Assembly (NCBI RefSeq): GCF_001678905.1
Contig: NZ_CP012117.1
Location: 1,798,001 to 1,862,000, forward strand
Source: Dermabacter vaginalis
Lineage (GTDB): Bacteria > Actinomycetota > Actinomycetes > Actinomycetales > Dermabacteraceae
Direction: 5' to 3'
DNA: 64,000 nt
Positions 44 to 24,700 of this stretch are shown piece after piece. Made by a program: the position numbers and the translations under genes. Within the stretch, counting starts at the first letter, position 1. Each line of letters opens with the position of its first letter. The notes below the pieces were generated by a model, which saw nothing but the letters and a program-made list of their open reading frames with translations, had not been told where the DNA came from and did not search any database.

Positions 44-1015
44 CTATGAAATCTCCGGTGGTGTCGTGCGTTCGATGGCGCGCAAGCGCACGCTCGCCGA
101 ACGCGGGTTGGTTTCTTGCTCGTGTGCGGGCGCCTTCATGGCTCCGCGCTTGACGAGCGAAAAGTTCGGGGCAAACTCTGCGAGGTCAACGGGAAGGCCC
201 GCGGGAGTTTTCGAGGTGCTCGCCGCCACGAACGCTTCCTTGACCATGCGGTCTTCGAGTGAGTGGTAAGACTCGATGACGAGCCGACCGCCGAGCGCTA
301 GTGCCCCGAGGGCACTGTCGAGGGCGTCGCGAAGGATATCGAGCTCCTCATTCACGGCAATCCGCAGCGCTTGAAACGTACGCTTGGCCGGATGGCCACC
401 TGAGTGGAGGGACTTCGCGGGCAGGGACCGCTCGATCGCGCTCACAAGCTGGGGCGAACGCTCAAAGAGCTCCGACGCCCGCTCTTGCACAATTGTGCGC
501 GCGATCCGCCTCGAGAATTTCTCTTCTCCATAGCGGTACAGGATGTTCGCGATGTCCTGCTCGCTCCACGTATTAAGAATGTCCGCGGCGGTAAGCGAGT
601 CGCCGTCGGGATTCATGCGCATATCGAGAGGAGCGTCAACGCTGTAGGCGAAACCGCGCTCGCGTGTATCAATCTGAAAACTCGAGAGACCGAGGTCCAT
701 GAGGATACCGTCAGCCTTCTCACGCCCCGCTTCCGCTAGCGCATCCACGATTCCGTCGTAAGTGGTGTGCACGAGTGTGAAGCGCCCGTCGAAGCCTTCC
801 TGGATCAGGCGCTCGCGAGCGAGGCCGAGCGCTGCTGCGTCACGGTCGATCCCCACGAGGTGGGTGTTCGGAAACGCCTCGAGAACAGCGCACGCGTGTC
901 CCGCCATGCCGAGGGTGCAGTCCACGTAGGTGGAGTTCGCGCGCTCGAGTGCGGGGCGTAGGAGCTCGAGGCACTCCTCGCGCATCACGGGTGCGTGAAG
1001 CTGGGACGCGTCCAT
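44..1015 (-). CDS. rsmH: 16S rRNA (cytosine(1402)-N(4))-methyltransferase RsmH
   Basis: Methylates N4 of C1402 in the ribosomal P site using S-adenosylmethionine. The 323-aa product has the family layout: N-terminal HAPVMREECLELL, a SAM-binding loop around residues 31-42 (VDCTLGMAGH), MDLGLSSFQID near 106-116, and IESYHSLEDRMVK near 245-258. Length is normal. The start is preceded by GAGGGGAGG about 5 bases upstream. It follows mraZ on the same strand across a 152-bp leader that can fold into a long hairpin (candidate mraW RNA), so expression is probably tied to the mraZ promoter plus that leader. Family assignment is very secure. Confidence 0.97.
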   Translation of the reverse strand: MDASQLHAPVMREECLELLRPALERANSTYVDCTLGMAGHACAVLEAFPNTHLVGIDRDAAALGLARERLIQEGFDGRFTLVHTTYDGIVDALAEAGREKADGILMDLGLSSFQIDTRERGFAYSVDAPLDMRMNPDGDSLTAADILNTWSEQDIANILYRYGEEKFSRRIARTIVQERASELFERSPQLVSAIERSLPAKSLHSGGHPAKRTFQALRIAVNEELDILRDALDSALGALALGGRLVIESYHSLEDRMVKEAFVAASTSKTPAGLPVDLAEFAPNFSLVKRGAMKAPAHEQETNPRSASVRLRAIERTTPPEIS

Positions 1016-1167: not shown

Positions 1168-1599
1168 CTAGAACAAACCTGGAACGATCTCGGTTGCCGT
1201 TTGAGCGAAGGCCTCCTCGGTCTCTCCCAGATATGTCTCCCACGCTTCGCTCGACCAGATTTCGATGCGGTTGCCGGCACCAATAACCGTGCATTCGCGA
1301 TCGAGCCCCGCGTATGAGCGAAGGTGCGAAGGAATGGTCACGCGGCCCTGCTTATCCGGCACGACGTCTTCCGCTCCCGAGAGGAGCACGCGAAGGTAAT
1401 CGCGCGCATCCTTGCTCGTGACCGGCGCCTGGCGCAACTGCTCGTGAAGGTTCTCGAACTCCCGCATCGGGTACACCGTCACGCAGTGTTCCTGACCTCG
1501 GGTCATCACGAGCCCCGCCGCGAGCTGATCGCGAAACTTTGCCGGAAAGATGAGCCGCCCCTTGTCGTCGAGCTTGGGCGTGAAGGTGCCAAGAAACAT
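1168..1599 (-). CDS. mraZ: Transcriptional regulator / division protein MraZ
   Basis: First gene of the division and cell-wall cluster. It is a ring-forming DNA-binding protein that represses its own operon. The product carries two AbrB-like repeats, each with a DxxxR motif: DDKGR near residue 12 and DKQGR near 83. The ATG at 1599 is preferred to the in-frame ATG at 1611 because the latter overlaps a GGAGGTG ribosome site five bases before 1599; the resulting 143 aa is the usual family length. Upstream are three 10-bp-spaced GTGG boxes overlapping a candidate promoter, as expected for autoregulation. Confidence 0.96.
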
Positions 1600-1644
1600 G
1601 GGCACCTCCATTCCCCGTCTCGATCCGGGTGGACCTCTCCTTAC

Positions 1645-1678
1645 GCCCCCACTTTACCCCACTTCCCACCACAAACAA
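1645..1678 (-). promoter_or_regulatory. Candidate mraZ promoter with overlapping MraZ operator boxes
   Basis: On the minus strand TTGTTT (1678-1673) and TAAAGT (1656-1651) are separated by 16 bases, a plausible -35/-10 pair about 50 bases before the mraZ start. Three TGG-type boxes (TGGTGGG, TGGGGTA, TGGGGGC) spaced 10 bp cover the spacer, the -10 and the region after it. Characterised MraZ operators are direct repeats of TGGG with about 10-bp spacing at the mraZ promoter. The match is by eye. Confidence 0.5.
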
Positions 1679-1731
1679 CACCCCATTCACCACATCGTCA
1701 CCAAATCAGCATAAAAACGCAGGCCAGAAAG

Positions 1732-1750
1732 GTGGAGGTAAGTGGAGGAG
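1732..1750 (+). repeat. Solitary copy of the 19-bp GTGGAGG repeat
   Basis: GTGGAGGTAAGTGGAGGAG is a single unit of the same bipartite 19-mer that is tandemly repeated at 1938-2013. It sits about 130 bp upstream of the mraZ start. Further isolated TGGAGG words occur at 1783 and 1912 on the same strand. Confidence 0.75.
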
Positions 1751-1937
1751 ATTCGCCGCACAACCCCTTCAAGGGCCACAATTGGAGGGATTTCCCAGGG
1801 AAAACCCGTCGAACGCATCGTCGAGCTCGAGCGCCCCGCAGACTCAACCTATCTCCTAAACATGCAGGTCAATACGCAGTTTTTGGGTTGCATAAGACCC
1901 CGCGCGCCAGTTGGAGGAACCGCGGCGGGGTGAGGTG

Positions 1938-2013
1938 GTGGAGGAAAGTGGAGGCAGTGGAGAGAAGTGGAGGTGGTGGAGGGAAATGGAGGCAGTGGTG
2001 GAAAGTGGAAGCC
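1938..2013 (+). repeat. Four tandem 19-bp units, GTGG core every 9-10 bp
   Basis: Units begin at 1938, 1957, 1976 and 1995. The first is GTGGAGGAAAGTGGAGGCA; the others differ by 3-4 bases. Each unit holds two GTGG(A/T) half-sites, so eight half-sites follow one another at alternating 10- and 9-bp steps, close to one helical turn each. The array is intergenic, between the 3' end of the DUF3040 gene and the mraZ promoter. The rest of 1679-2176 holds no credible gene; short frames there are low-complexity shadows. Confidence 0.8.
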
Positions 2014-2176
2014 GCGGATGGGCATCGCTCGCAGAGGGGCATCGAGGTTGAGAAAGTTGCAGGGGCACGCCCGAAATCACGGCCTCGAGGTGAGTGTTCA
2101 ACACCCTCAAAAAGAGCAAGCGCTGATGGATGCTGATTCAGCACCCGCGCTTAGCGCTCGTGTCTCACGCTTATGG

Positions 2177-2590
2177 CTAGCGCTCGCGCCCGCGTTCGTC
2201 CCATCGCTGCTCGAGCTTCTTCATGAAGCTCGACTGTGCCTTCGAACCTTTTGCGCCTCGCTTCGAGGCCCCAGAAGTAAAGGACGGATGCATACGGCGC
2301 GGATCATCCAAGGGGATCTGTTTTGGCGATTCCGATGAGAGGCACACAAACGCGCCCACCACCATCACAACGAAGGCGAGAACGCCCAGCCACACCGCGG
2401 GAAGTGACACCGCGAAAATGAGGAGTGCGAGACCGGCGACGATAACGCCACCGCCGAGGGCAAGGCGGCGGGTATTGAAGGACGACGATTTTTCGGGCTC
2501 ACCGAACTGGTGCGCGAGCGTGGGATCATCACTCGAGAGCTGCTTCTCGAGCTCATCGAGAATCCTCTGCTCCTTTTCGGAGAGTGGCAT
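2177..2590 (-). CDS. DUF3040 domain-containing membrane protein
   Basis: A 137-aa protein of a small actinobacterial family of unknown function. The N-terminus MPLSEKEQRILDELEKQL is the DUF3040 hallmark, an acidic amphipathic helix. Two adjacent hydrophobic segments follow at about residues 43-62 and 64-84, then a basic C-terminal tail (SKRGAKGSKAQSSFMKK), suggesting a hairpin membrane protein with cytoplasmic ends. The start has a strong AAGGAGG site. In many actinobacteria it lies between dinB and mraZ, as here. No enzymatic motif is visible. Confidence 0.88.
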   Translation of the reverse strand: MPLSEKEQRILDELEKQLSSDDPTLAHQFGEPEKSSSFNTRRLALGGGVIVAGLALLIFAVSLPAVWLGVLAFVVMVVGAFVCLSSESPKQIPLDDPRRMHPSFTSGASKRGAKGSKAQSSFMKKLEQRWDERGRER

Positions 2591-18733: not shown

Positions 18734-21700
18734 CTACGAGCGCCTGCTGCGGCGCCCAGCCACCATGATCACGCAACCCGCAAGAACCGTGAGCACACCA
18801 GCCGCAGCACTCAGACCAATCGGCGCACCCGTACGCGGCAGCGGCAAACCAGACACCGGCTTGTGCGGCTTCGACGGCTTCTGCGGAACGGCAGGCGTCT
18901 TCGGCTTTTCAACCGTGTTGCACGCCGTGTTATTAGCCGCACCATCAGAATCACCCGCCATGCTCACCTGGTTGAACAAGCCACTCGTGGTGCCATCAGC
19001 ATCGCACCTCGAGGCCTTCGCCCAGTCAGCGTTTGCGCTGTACGAACCAGAGAGCACGACCGTGAACGACTTCGCGCCACCAAGACCGAGCTCAACACCA
19101 TCGGTCACCGTAAACGAACCGTCCTTCACGGCAACACTCTTACCGTCAACCGTCGCACCCGTGACAGTAAACCCAGCGGGAACACGGGGCGTGTCCGCCA
19201 CGGGCTTCGACTTACCAGCACGCTCGCCGGTGTTCGTGACCGTGACCGTGTAGGTCGAGGACCACTCACCGTTCACAGCAGACGCCTTGCCCGATTCCTT
19301 CTTCACTGCAAATGCCGGATCCTTCGTCACCGTGGTGCACGCCGTGTTGTTGTCCTCACCGTCAGTATCTCCCGGCATCGCAACCGTGTTGACGAAACCG
19401 TGGGCACCTTCAGCGCCGTCAGCACCACACTGACCCGCGGCTGCCCAATCGGCATCAGCCGGCCTGTACGAACCAGAGACCACGACCGTGAACGACTTCG
19501 ACTCGCCAGGAGCAAGCTCAACACCCTCAGTGACCGTCACCGAGCCATCCTCAAGCGTGGCGTCAGCACCGTCAACCGAAACCTTCTCCACCTGGAACCC
19601 AGCCGGAGCAGAAGGCGTATCCGCAACAGGCGCAGACTTACCAGCAAGCACACCGGTGTTCGTCACCGTCACCGTGTAGGTCGAGGACCACTCACCATTC
19701 ACGGCAGACGCCTCACCGGAGGCCTCCTTCTTCACCGCGAACTTCGGCGCCTTCTCCACCGTCGTGCAGGCCGTGTTGTTGCCCTCGCCGTCAGAATCAC
19801 CATCGAGCGTGACGCCATTGACGAAGCCATGAGCACCCTCAGCACCATCACCAGCGCACTGAAGAACCTCAGACTCCTTCACCTGGTGAGGATCAAACGA
19901 ACCCGACACCACGACCGTGAACGACTTCGACTCACCAGGAGCAAGTTCAACACCATCGGTCACCGTGAACGAGCCGTCCTCAAGGGCAACCTCAGTCGCT
20001 TCACCCGCACCTTCCTGCTGAACCGTGGCCTTTTCCACCTGGAAACCAGCAGGAACCGACGGTGTATCCGCAACAGGCGCAGACTTACCAGCAAGCACAC
20101 CGGTGTTCGTCACCGTCACCGTGTAGGTCGAGGACCACTCACCATTCACGGCAGACGCCTCACCGGAGGCCTCCTTCTTCACCGCGAACTTCGGCGCCTT
20201 CTCCACCGTCGTGCAGGCCGTGTTGTTGCCCTCGCCGTCAGAATCACCATCGAGCGTGACGCCATTGACGAAGCCATGAGCACCCTCAGCACCATCACCA
20301 GCGCACTGAAGAACCTCAGACTCCTTCACCTGGTGAGGATCAAACGAACCCGACACCACGACCGTGAACGACTTCGACTCACCAGGAGCAAGTTCAACAC
20401 CATCGGTCACCGTGAACGAGCCGTCCTCAAGGGCAACCTCAGTCGCTTCACCCGCACCTTCCTGCTGAACCGTGGCCTTTTCCACCTGGAAACCAGCAGG
20501 AACCGACGGTGTATCCGCAACAGGCGCAGACTTACCAGCAAGCACACCGGTATTCGTCACCGTCACCTTGTAGGTCGAGGACCACTCACCATTCACGGCA
20601 GACGCCTCGCCCGAGGCCTCCTTCTTCACCGCGAACTTCGGCGCCTTCTCCACCGTCGTGCAGGCCGTGTTGTTGCCCTCGCCATCAGAATCACCATCGA
20701 GCGTGACGCCATTGACGAAACCATGAGCACCCTCAGCACCATCACCAGCACACTGAAGAACCTCAGACTCCTTCACCTGAGCCGGATCAAACGAACCCGA
20801 CACCACAACCGTGAACGACTTCGACTCACCAGGAGCAAGCTCAACACCATCAGTGACCGTCACCGAGCCATCTTCAAGCGTGGCGTCCGCACCGTCAACC
20901 GAGACGTTCTCCACCTGGAACCCAGCCGGAGCAGAAGGCGTATCCACGACAGCCGCAGACTTACCAGCAAGCACACCGGTATTCGTCACCGTCACCGTGT
21001 AGGTCGACGACCACTTACCGTTCACAGCGTTCGCTTTGCCAGAAGCTTCTTTCTTCACCGCGAACTTGGGCGCCTTCTCCACTGTCGTGCAGGCAGTGTT
21101 GTTCTTCGCACCATCCGAGTCACCCTTCATCGTGACCTGGTTGAAGAACCCGCCCTTGGATGCATCCTGAACCGCAGCATCACACTGCGACGCAGCAGCG
21201 CCATCAGCCTGACCAGAAACATACGTTCCCAACACCACAACCGTGAACGACTTCGACTCACCAGGAGCAAGCTCAACACCCTCACTCACGGTGAACTCAC
21301 CGTTCGTCAGCGTCACAGGCTCACCCTTATCGATCTTCGCACTCGTGATCAAGAAACCCTTCGGCGCAGCCGGTTTATCCGTCACTACAGGAGACTTACC
21401 AGCAAGCACACCGGTATTCGTCACCGTCACCTTGTAGGTCGAGGACCACTTACCGTTCACAGCGTTCGCTTTGCCAGAAGCTTCTTTCTTCACCGCGAAC
21501 TTGGGCGCCTTCTCCACTGTCGTGCAGGCAGTGTTGTTCTTCGCACCATCCGAGTCACCCTTCATCGTGACCTGGTTGAAGAACCCGCCCTTGGATGCAT
21601 CCTGAACCGCAGCATCACACTGCGACGCAGCAGCGCCATCAGCCTGACCAGAAACATACGTTCCCAACACCACAACCGTGAACGACTTCGACTCACCAGG

Positions 21701-24700
21701 AGCAAGCTCAACACCCTCACTCACGGTGAACTCACCGTTCGTCAGCGTCACAGGCTCACCCTTATCGATCTTCGCACTCGTGATCAAGAAACCCTTCGGC
21801 GCAGCCGGTTTATCCGTCACTACAGGAGACTTACCAGCAAGCACACCGGTATTCGTCACCGTCACCTTGTAGGTCGAGGACCACTTACCGTTCACAGCGT
21901 TCGCTTTGCCAGAAGCTTCTTTCTTCACCGCGAACTTCGGCGCCTTCTCCACCGTCGTGCAGGCCGTGTTGTTGCCTTGGCCGTCAGAATCACCATCGAG
22001 CGTGACCCCATTGGCAAAGCCCTTACCGTCCGAAACACCTTCCTCGCCGGTGCAGTGAAGAACCTCAGACTCCTTCACCCGTGCCGGATCAAACGAACCC
22101 GACACCACAACCGTGAAAGTCTTCGACTCACCAGGGGCAAGCTCAACACCATTAGTCACCGTGAACGAGCCGTCCGTCAGCGTGGCATCCTTACCGTCAA
22201 CCTTCGCTCCCGAGACAGTGAAACCAGCAGGAACCGCTGGCGTATCCGTCACAGCCTTCGAGGTGCCCTTCACCTCGCCAGTGTTCGACACCGTGACCTT
22301 GTAGGTCGAGGACCACTTGCCGTTCGCGGCAGACGCCTCTCCCGAGGCCTCCTTCTTCACCGCAAACTTCGGGGCCTTCTTCACAGGATTACACGCTGCG
22401 TTGTTCGAAGTGCCGTCGGTGTCGCCATCCATCGTGACCGTATTGACAAGACCACCCGTAACGGAACCGCCGCCAGCAGTCTCACACTTCGCCACCGACG
22501 CCCAATCAACGTCAGCCGCCTTATAGTCACCGGAGATCTCAACCTTGAAGGTCTTCGACCCACCCGGCGCAAGCTCCACACCATCAGTCACAGGGAACGA
22601 ACCAGACTTAGCATCAACCGTCGCCCCATCAACCTTGGCCCCCGAGAGTGTGAACCCCTTCGGAAGCGAAGGCGTATCCGCCACTGAAGCAGACTTCCCC
22701 TCAAACGGCCCCGTGTTCTTCACTGTCACCGTGTAGGTGGAGGACCACTTACCATCCTCAGCAGACGCCTTCCCAGACTTCTTCTCTACCGCAAACTGGG
22801 GTTGAGCGACACGAGCAGCACCAACCTTCGGCGCCTCAACAGGAGGCAAGGACTGACCGCTAGCAAAGCTCGCCTTCGCCGCCACCGAATTCCACAACAC
22901 ATCCGTCGGTTTCATTACTGGAACGGAGATCGTGTACTCGAGCGCCAGAGTTTGCTTCGGCTTTAGCTCACCGTCATACACAAACTTCAGGGCTTTCACA
23001 TTCTTCGGAGCAGTTTCCGACCAGTCATTCACGCAACCGCTATTGGCGGCATTCGGGAATACTTCCGGACGGCAAGGGTTCAGTGAGGGCGAGTAGTAGA
23101 CCTTCACTCCCTGAGGGACCTTCGTCATTTCAGTGAACGAGCCAGACTGCGTCGACCCACGGCTCTGATCCGCAAGTTTCTCGCTCACACCCGTATCTCC
23201 CTTATGCGGGAGCACGTCGTAAAACACGAGTCCGTTCGTTGCATCGCTCGAAGAGTTCGTAGCCTCAATGCGATACGTGACCGGACCGCCCTTGGCAGGA
23301 ACGACCGCTTTCTTTGGGGTGTAGGCGAAAGAGGCGTCTTCTGGACCTTTCACCGCCTTCGCAAGTGAGAGCGCTCGATAGCCAGCAGGGGCGTCGATCG
23401 ACCAGGAAGAGGCGCCGTGGCAGGCTTTAGCGGTGGCGCTATCCTCATCCAGATTGAGGACGTCCTCGGGCGTGTCTAACGCGCACCGGAAATTTGGCTC
23501 CGCCGCATCCGTCAGGTACGCATCGTTGGTATAGGAGCCGGCATAGCGGGGCTGCGCAGCGAACCGGAAACGCCCGACCACATCGACATTGCCGGACGGA
23601 TCGGGATCGGCCCACGTATGAGGGATCCTCCACTGCACGAGCGTGCGGCCGTCCTGGTAGTTCTCCACGACCTTGGTCTCGACTTTCCGCTTCGAGGCGC
23701 CGCCGCTTACTCCTCGAGTGAATTCAGCCTCGTCATAGGTGTAGACCGCATCCGTGATATCACTTTTTCTATGAATTTTGGAAGGGTCGGTCACGATTTC
23801 CATGCCGCGCGGAAGGAGGTCGCTGACGACAATATCTCCAGACGACTGCGCCTTGCCACGGAAGGAGAAATCGACCTGCCAACGGATACCGGCCTTCGAA
23901 ACCTCATTGTTTGGCTCAAGTGGAACGAACTGGTTTCTAATGGAAAACCAGGTTTTCTCCACGTGATGAAGGCTCCCCAGAAGGTGCAAATCTGCAATAG
24001 GAGAACGTCCGTCGATAAACGGTTTAGTTTGCTTGTTGGCAGTGACCGTCACTCGCGCTTTCTGATTGCGCAGGATCGCGTCGCCGCCGAGTTTCTCGTC
24101 AGCGAAGCCGCCGATCGTCATCTTCCAGGTTTTTGCCCCGTCGAGTGGACGCCCCGGTGCAGCAACGATCCTCGCTACCTTGCCACGTGCGCTCTCGGGA
24201 ACCGAGTACACCACGGAGCCAATCCGCTTCGGCTTGTCTTTTTCTGCAACCTCAACGTCCCCCAGTTTCTTAAGGGAGACTCGACTTCCATCCGTCAGAA
24301 CGGCGACCGGCACGAAGTCTCCAACGCTAAGGCTGCCGGGGGCGTCAGTACGGATCTCCACCGCCGTCACGTGAAACGCAGGGCGCTGGCAAAGTTTGCC
24401 ATCGGTCCGGGACGTGTACAAGACGCCTTCTTGCACGGTCGCCGGATCCATACACGGCACATCGTCTTCGTAGCTTTGGGTCAACGGAAGCAGTGAACTT
24501 CCGTCCTTCACTGGAGTGTCTCCCTCTTTGACAGCCACGTCGACCGTATAGCCGCCCGCGACCAACGAGGAACGATCACCGTTGAGACGGTCATCGGCGT
24601 CGTGGGCTTCTTGCGGCGTCCGCCACAAAGCTTTGCCATCCCAGTTTTTGTCGTTGGCGTCTTGATAGCGGAGGGGAAAAATGCCCTTTCGGGTCTCGTC

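Follow-up and report, generated by a model that had tools for sequence, protein, structure and literature searches.

Upstream of mraZ in the Dermabacter vaginalis window (the whole stretch of 64,000 nucleotides analysed here), we identified a putative two-part MraZ operator whose boxes lie on the strand opposite to the promoter boxes. With slightly better than even confidence, we propose that this operator would form a loop with the promoter boxes and so tighten the autorepression of the dcw cluster. The features of the region are listed below, with their positions in the window.

44-1015, minus strand: rsmH/mraW.
1168..1611, minus strand: mraZ, 147 aa, PF02381, the presumed binder (domain search).
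1647..1672, minus strand: promoter-proximal MraZ boxes, three GTGG[G/T]G (sequence and upstream-region comparison).
1651..1656, minus strand: TAAAGT, which shares bases with boxes 2-3 and is the likely -10 of the mraZ/dcw promoter (sequence).
1719..1726, minus strand: TGGCCTGC, a local variant of TGACCTGC, at -54/-55 from the first promoter box.
1732..1747, plus strand: inner reversed two-box candidate MraZ operator, GTGGAGGTAAGTGGAG (sequence and comparison).
1864..1871, minus strand: outer TGACCTGC element, at -199.
1938..2014, plus strand: outer reversed array of eight boxes in four two-box units of 19 bp (sequence, TRF and outer reversed pairs in relatives).
2177..2590, minus strand: DUF3040 gene, next upstream of mraZ and in the same direction, bounding the regulatory region.

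MraZ, a regulator of division genes, ranks among the most broadly conserved regulators in bacteria. It forms ring-shaped oligomers, and its targets are GTGG-type boxes arranged as direct repeats every 10 bp. The product of mraZ in the window contains two PF02381 stretches (E=1e-40 in the domain search) and matches the MraZ fold, with Z 17-19 to 1n0e, 9qlg, 9sz7 and 9r4j; 9sz7 and 9r4j are cryo-EM structures of M. genitalium MraZ-promoter complexes, one of them with four boxes. Reading down, the promoter boxes lie at 1672, 1662 and 1652, in steps of 10 and 10 bp. The TAAAGT hexamer that overlaps them is likely the -10 of the mraZ/dcw promoter, and its TA is nearly invariant in the anchored consensus.

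The cores of the outer array are found on the plus strand at 1938, 1948, 1957, 1967, 1976, 1986, 1995 and 2005. Their steps of 10, 9, 10, 9, 10, 9 and 10 bp define four two-box units of 19 bp, and a tandem-repeat scan (TRF) gives a period of 19 with 3.8 copies. The sequence-only reading had described eight GTGG half-sites in four such units: the array and its 10/9 steps hold, but the sixth core (1986) is ATGG, GTGG being present in 7 of the 8. The extra unit that it had placed near 1732 was recovered as two boxes on the plus strand (GTGGAGGTAAGTGGAG, 1732-1747); counted from the first promoter box, its CCAC stands at -73, where conservation is highest. Chains of [GA]TGG at 9/10 bp reach 8 members in the array. 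Elsewhere in the window they stop at 2, and 200 shuffles preserving its dinucleotide composition never gave more than 4. In the whole genome (2.39 Mb), GTGGAGN4GTGGAG has three matches, all at the mraZ upstream region, while four of the five matches to the looser GTGGRGN4GTGGRG fall within the mraZ regulatory region. Between the two parts, the block TTGGAGGGATTTCCCAGGG (1782-1800) includes a degenerate box and resembles CCCTGGGAAAACCCTCCAATTTGGG (mraZ strand) in the Dermabacter relatives L005 and L006.

We then compared 190 actinomycete mraZ upstream regions (named loci, whole-genome regions and the window). The three promoter boxes are common to nearly all of them, and the first box served as anchor in each. 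In the mraZ orientation the reversed boxes read CYCCAC. Of 161 regions, 97 have a CCAC-CCAC pair spaced by exactly 10 bp, as opposed to 6-31 for other spacings; same-strand box pairs at 10 bp were seen in 8. Between -350 and -30, in 145 non-redundant regions, C[CT]CCAC is found 452 times versus 66 times for its same-strand counterpart. The opposition of strand that had been noted between the array (plus) and the promoter boxes (minus) of the window is therefore widespread. Indeed, this orientation excess, together with the occurrence of 10-bp pairs across genomes, argues that the reversed pair is general to the class and not Dermabacter-specific; roughly two thirds of the genomes across the class have such pairs. 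Since the reversed hexamer is absent from -130 to -30 in 45 of the 145 regions, the inner site is dispensable in some lineages.

The reversed boxes also share the profile of the promoter boxes at positions that our search left free. The profile search fixed only CCA[C/T] at 10-bp spacing, with no constraint on the next two bases. After GTGG, the inner reversed boxes have A (0.67) or G (0.24) followed by G (0.96), and the outer ones A (0.49) or G (0.41) followed by G (0.94), giving a GTGG[A/G]G profile common to reversed and promoter boxes. By sequence, the sites thus appear to belong to MraZ, as had been suggested from the window alone. The accompanying worry that the GTGGAGG core, which departs from the known one, might betray another protein can be dropped, GTGG[A/G]G being also the core of the actinobacterial promoter boxes. 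Pairwise sequence identity is 0.48 in the pairs versus 0.30 in the intervening DNA, for which spacing alone is kept.

This shared core bears on the idea that the array is bound by an unrelated regulator, for example a response regulator with 10-11 bp direct repeats such as MtrA, which we hold to be improbable. The MtrA site is not known to be GTGG-like. Direct repeats about one turn apart would suit such proteins, and in Dietzia an EMSA reportedly showed MtrA bound to a 100-bp fragment taken from upstream of mraZ; no motif was found in that paper (PMC9602371). Against this idea, the core GTGG[A/G]G equals that of the promoter MraZ boxes, the sites are nearly unique to the locus, unlike those of a global regulator, and they are absent where mraZ is absent. 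Indeed, ten rsmH-upstream loci of Streptomyces (inferred identity) contain neither reversed pairs nor TGACCTGC, and the MraZ family was not found in these ten genomes, or was marginal in one (E=6e-4). In this Streptomyces group (f23), rsmH is present and its promoter keeps TTGACC and TAAAGT with little of the boxes; the co-absence of mraZ and reversed pairs counts as a single loss event. Altogether, the shared box profile, the near-uniqueness in the genome and the absence in Streptomyces designate MraZ as the likeliest ligand, and its role as binder of the reversed boxes is a well-supported prediction.

The position of the reversed boxes relative to the promoter is constrained as well. In Dermabacteraceae and many other families, the start of the inner reversed pair is at -73 to -75; Microbacteriaceae and some others have it at -83 to -88, and a few at -106 to -108. 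Relative to the first promoter box, the nearest reversed boxes group around -64, -74/-75, -87, -97 and -118. A grid of 11 bp accommodates 88 of 100 to within 1.75 bp, for about one third expected and with an offset chosen post hoc. For the inner sites, the genome-rotation test gave R=0.76 at 11.1 bp (null maximum 0.30) and the family-rotation test R=0.71 (p=0.0005, 24 families); with the start codon as reference, the same pairs show no phase. The spacing of the inner site to the main operator is thus constrained by helical phase, with a period of 11.0-11.2 bp. Fits to LacR loops in living E. coli gave helical repeats close to this, at 11.08 and 11.60 bp per turn (PMC1762422). The outer sites (-140 to -350) are reversed too, with much weaker phasing: R falls to 0.34 (p=0.008 at the family level), and Microbacteriaceae show almost none (R=0.15).

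Most control hexamers showed no phase. Clustering was observed for CACC[C/T]C (p=0.007), which overlaps the reversed box, for GACC, which overlaps TGACC, and for forward GTGGRG between -130 and -30 (27 genomes), with a period of 12.1; the four-base words GCGC and TTTT were clustered in a weaker per-site jitter test. As some controls clustered, we relied on the genome-rotation and family-level tests.

The analysis of the reversed boxes also exposed a second element, TGACCTGC, found at -54 to -56 in most carriers, or about one to five turns farther upstream. In 75 kb it occurs 82 times on the mraZ strand versus 6 times on the other, and its family-level phase gave R=0.84. Many Dermabacteraceae carry it twice, the additional copy falling at about -166, -177, -187 or -198, in the stretch that separates the inner pair from the outer array. 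As judged from the compared regions, TGACCTGC is a conserved component, fixed in position, of the actinobacterial mraZ promoter. We considered it as the -35 of a second mraZ promoter and rejected this assignment, as the anchored consensus has no conserved -10 about 17 bp downstream.

The main rival to a loop involves this element. Together, the reversed boxes and TGACCTGC could be where an activator, either MraZ itself or some other protein, docks and contacts RNA polymerase from a distance of about 80-105 bp upstream of the start; the phase would then reflect polymerase contact and not a loop. Phased upstream sites are typical of polymerase-contacting activators, and a fixed phase would also suit a protein facing RNA polymerase; this reading accounts for the phase at -74, and the offset between TGACCTGC and the pair is fixed at 19-20 bp (-55/-74 from the first box, with one-turn alternatives). 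We nonetheless regard it as possible but rather unlikely. Indeed, the reversed pair has the MraZ box profile, Microbacteriaceae retain the reversed boxes without TGACCTGC, and the outer arrays, reversed and weakly phased, stand 140-350 bp away, from where direct contact would need bending.

The number of outer pairs varies in close relatives, with 4, 3 or 2 pairs at 19 bp, and L008 has 3 outer pairs at 22-23 bp. The sequence-only reading had proposed eight sites phased by 10/9 steps as the functional unit. This does not fit with the variation in unit number and within-array spacing (19, 22-23 bp). Moreover, the Dermabacter 19-bp unit averages 9.5 bp per box and by itself is not helically phased, which leaves the count of eight sites unsupported as a functional unit. 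Of the phasing whose conservation was to be compared across genomes, the two-box unit, its orientation and its phase relative to the promoter are kept, but unit number and array spacing are not. From this comparison, the two-box unit is the conserved element, represented in the window by the conserved core at 1732, which sits at the commonest step and which the sequence-only reading had touched on only briefly, and the outer array is a lineage-variable expansion of it in Dermabacter and close relatives. Outside Dermabacteraceae by record name, L058 (record name Arcanobacterium haemolyticum) has an outer array of the same form as that of the window, with two 19-bp units (CTCCACTTTCCTCCACC) at about -320 to -285 from mraZ.

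Variable copy number invites two readings without an operator. Replication slippage yielding a neutral tandem repeat would agree with the differences of unit number and period among close relatives and with the likeness of the tandem copies. For the inner site, the recurrence of reversed pairs with the same orientation, spacing and phase across the class contradicts it, and as an account of the whole we give it hardly any weight; the extra copy number in Dermabacter may be partly neutral. The array could also be a titration sink, or decoy, for MraZ that leaves the promoter complex untouched, as had been suggested. The many boxes, their variable number and the lack of an annotated plus-strand gene nearby would be in line with this, but strand and phase are conserved, and since a sink would require neither to be fixed, we consider it very unlikely. 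A distal operator, the other role that had been suggested, is the best reading of the sites.

Reversed and proximal boxes are inherently mutual inverted repeats, and one could imagine them working at the RNA level or as a cruciform, through CCUCCAC-GUGGNG pairing with the proximal boxes or through a Shine-Dalgarno-like GGAGG on an antisense transcript. Such pairing leaves the 11-bp quantised spacing unaccounted for. Scans for promoters and terminators detected no such sites in 1560-2260, which provides no evidence for an antisense transcript, and the only above-threshold Rfam match is the mraW RNA, located elsewhere, the other match being sub-threshold and due to chance. We judge this possibility extremely remote. 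The mraW RNA motif itself (RF01746, 53.1 bits) lies at 1069-1170 on the minus strand, between mraZ and rsmH. It is also a conserved actinobacterial regulatory element of the same operon; being an RNA inside the operon, it is unrelated to the upstream DNA boxes.

For the looped operator, we infer the following mechanism. MraZ would cover the -10 by binding the three promoter boxes and would bind, in addition, the reversed two-box unit upstream, whose CCAC is 64-75 bp away and elsewhere one to three turns more. One MraZ assembly, or two stacked rings, could grip both sets of boxes simultaneously and close a loop of about 64-75 bp, that is about six to seven turns, which would strengthen and tune the autorepression of mraZ and of the dcw cluster. 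As the reversed boxes hold one orientation and one rotational phase, a joint MraZ assembly would be the simplest mechanism. The outer array (1938-2014) may offer extra docking sites for a larger alternative loop and raise the local MraZ concentration, and TGACCTGC, between the reversed boxes and the promoter, might recruit a second protein that either bends the DNA or acts as an activator.

Neither MraZ boxes nor looping operators are new in themselves. Like the MraZ-bound boxes of the dcw promoters of E. coli, Mollicutes and M. genitalium, the boxes described here are G-T-G type direct repeats upstream of mraZ, in this case every 10 bp; those of Mollicutes are AAAGTG[T/G] direct repeats (PMC8475190). 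However, known MraZ boxes are at the promoter and on one strand, whereas the actinobacterial reversed boxes are 64-350 bp upstream, on the opposite strand and in helical register with the promoter boxes. As with the auxiliary operators of lac, ara and gal, they are remote copies of the promoter operator with a helically constrained spacing, of period about 11 bp. They differ from these systems by the putative ring-oligomer ligand MraZ, by their arrays of half-sites and by an orientation that is nearly always reversed, and looping is a prediction here. In the literature that we searched, outside which lie the key MraZ papers, we found no description of remote reversed MraZ boxes in helical register. 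Such fixed-register remote boxes provide a concrete and cheap handle on whether the MraZ ring loops DNA; with some two dozen actinobacterial families sharing the architecture, any answer would apply broadly.

Two further observations concern sequences farther away. In several genomes of the family, a GTGGRGN4GTGGRG pair is located about 8-9 kb from mraZ (G300:C5:449477 and G314:C114:13275, with G304 and G313 at a similar distance; the identical sequence GTGGAGCGAGGTGGAG was found twice). It may mark another MraZ site, within the dcw cluster, or be coding sequence. Finally, the window contains at 19209-22175 a tandem repeat of about 447 bp in 6.8 copies, which probably belongs to a repeat-domain surface protein.
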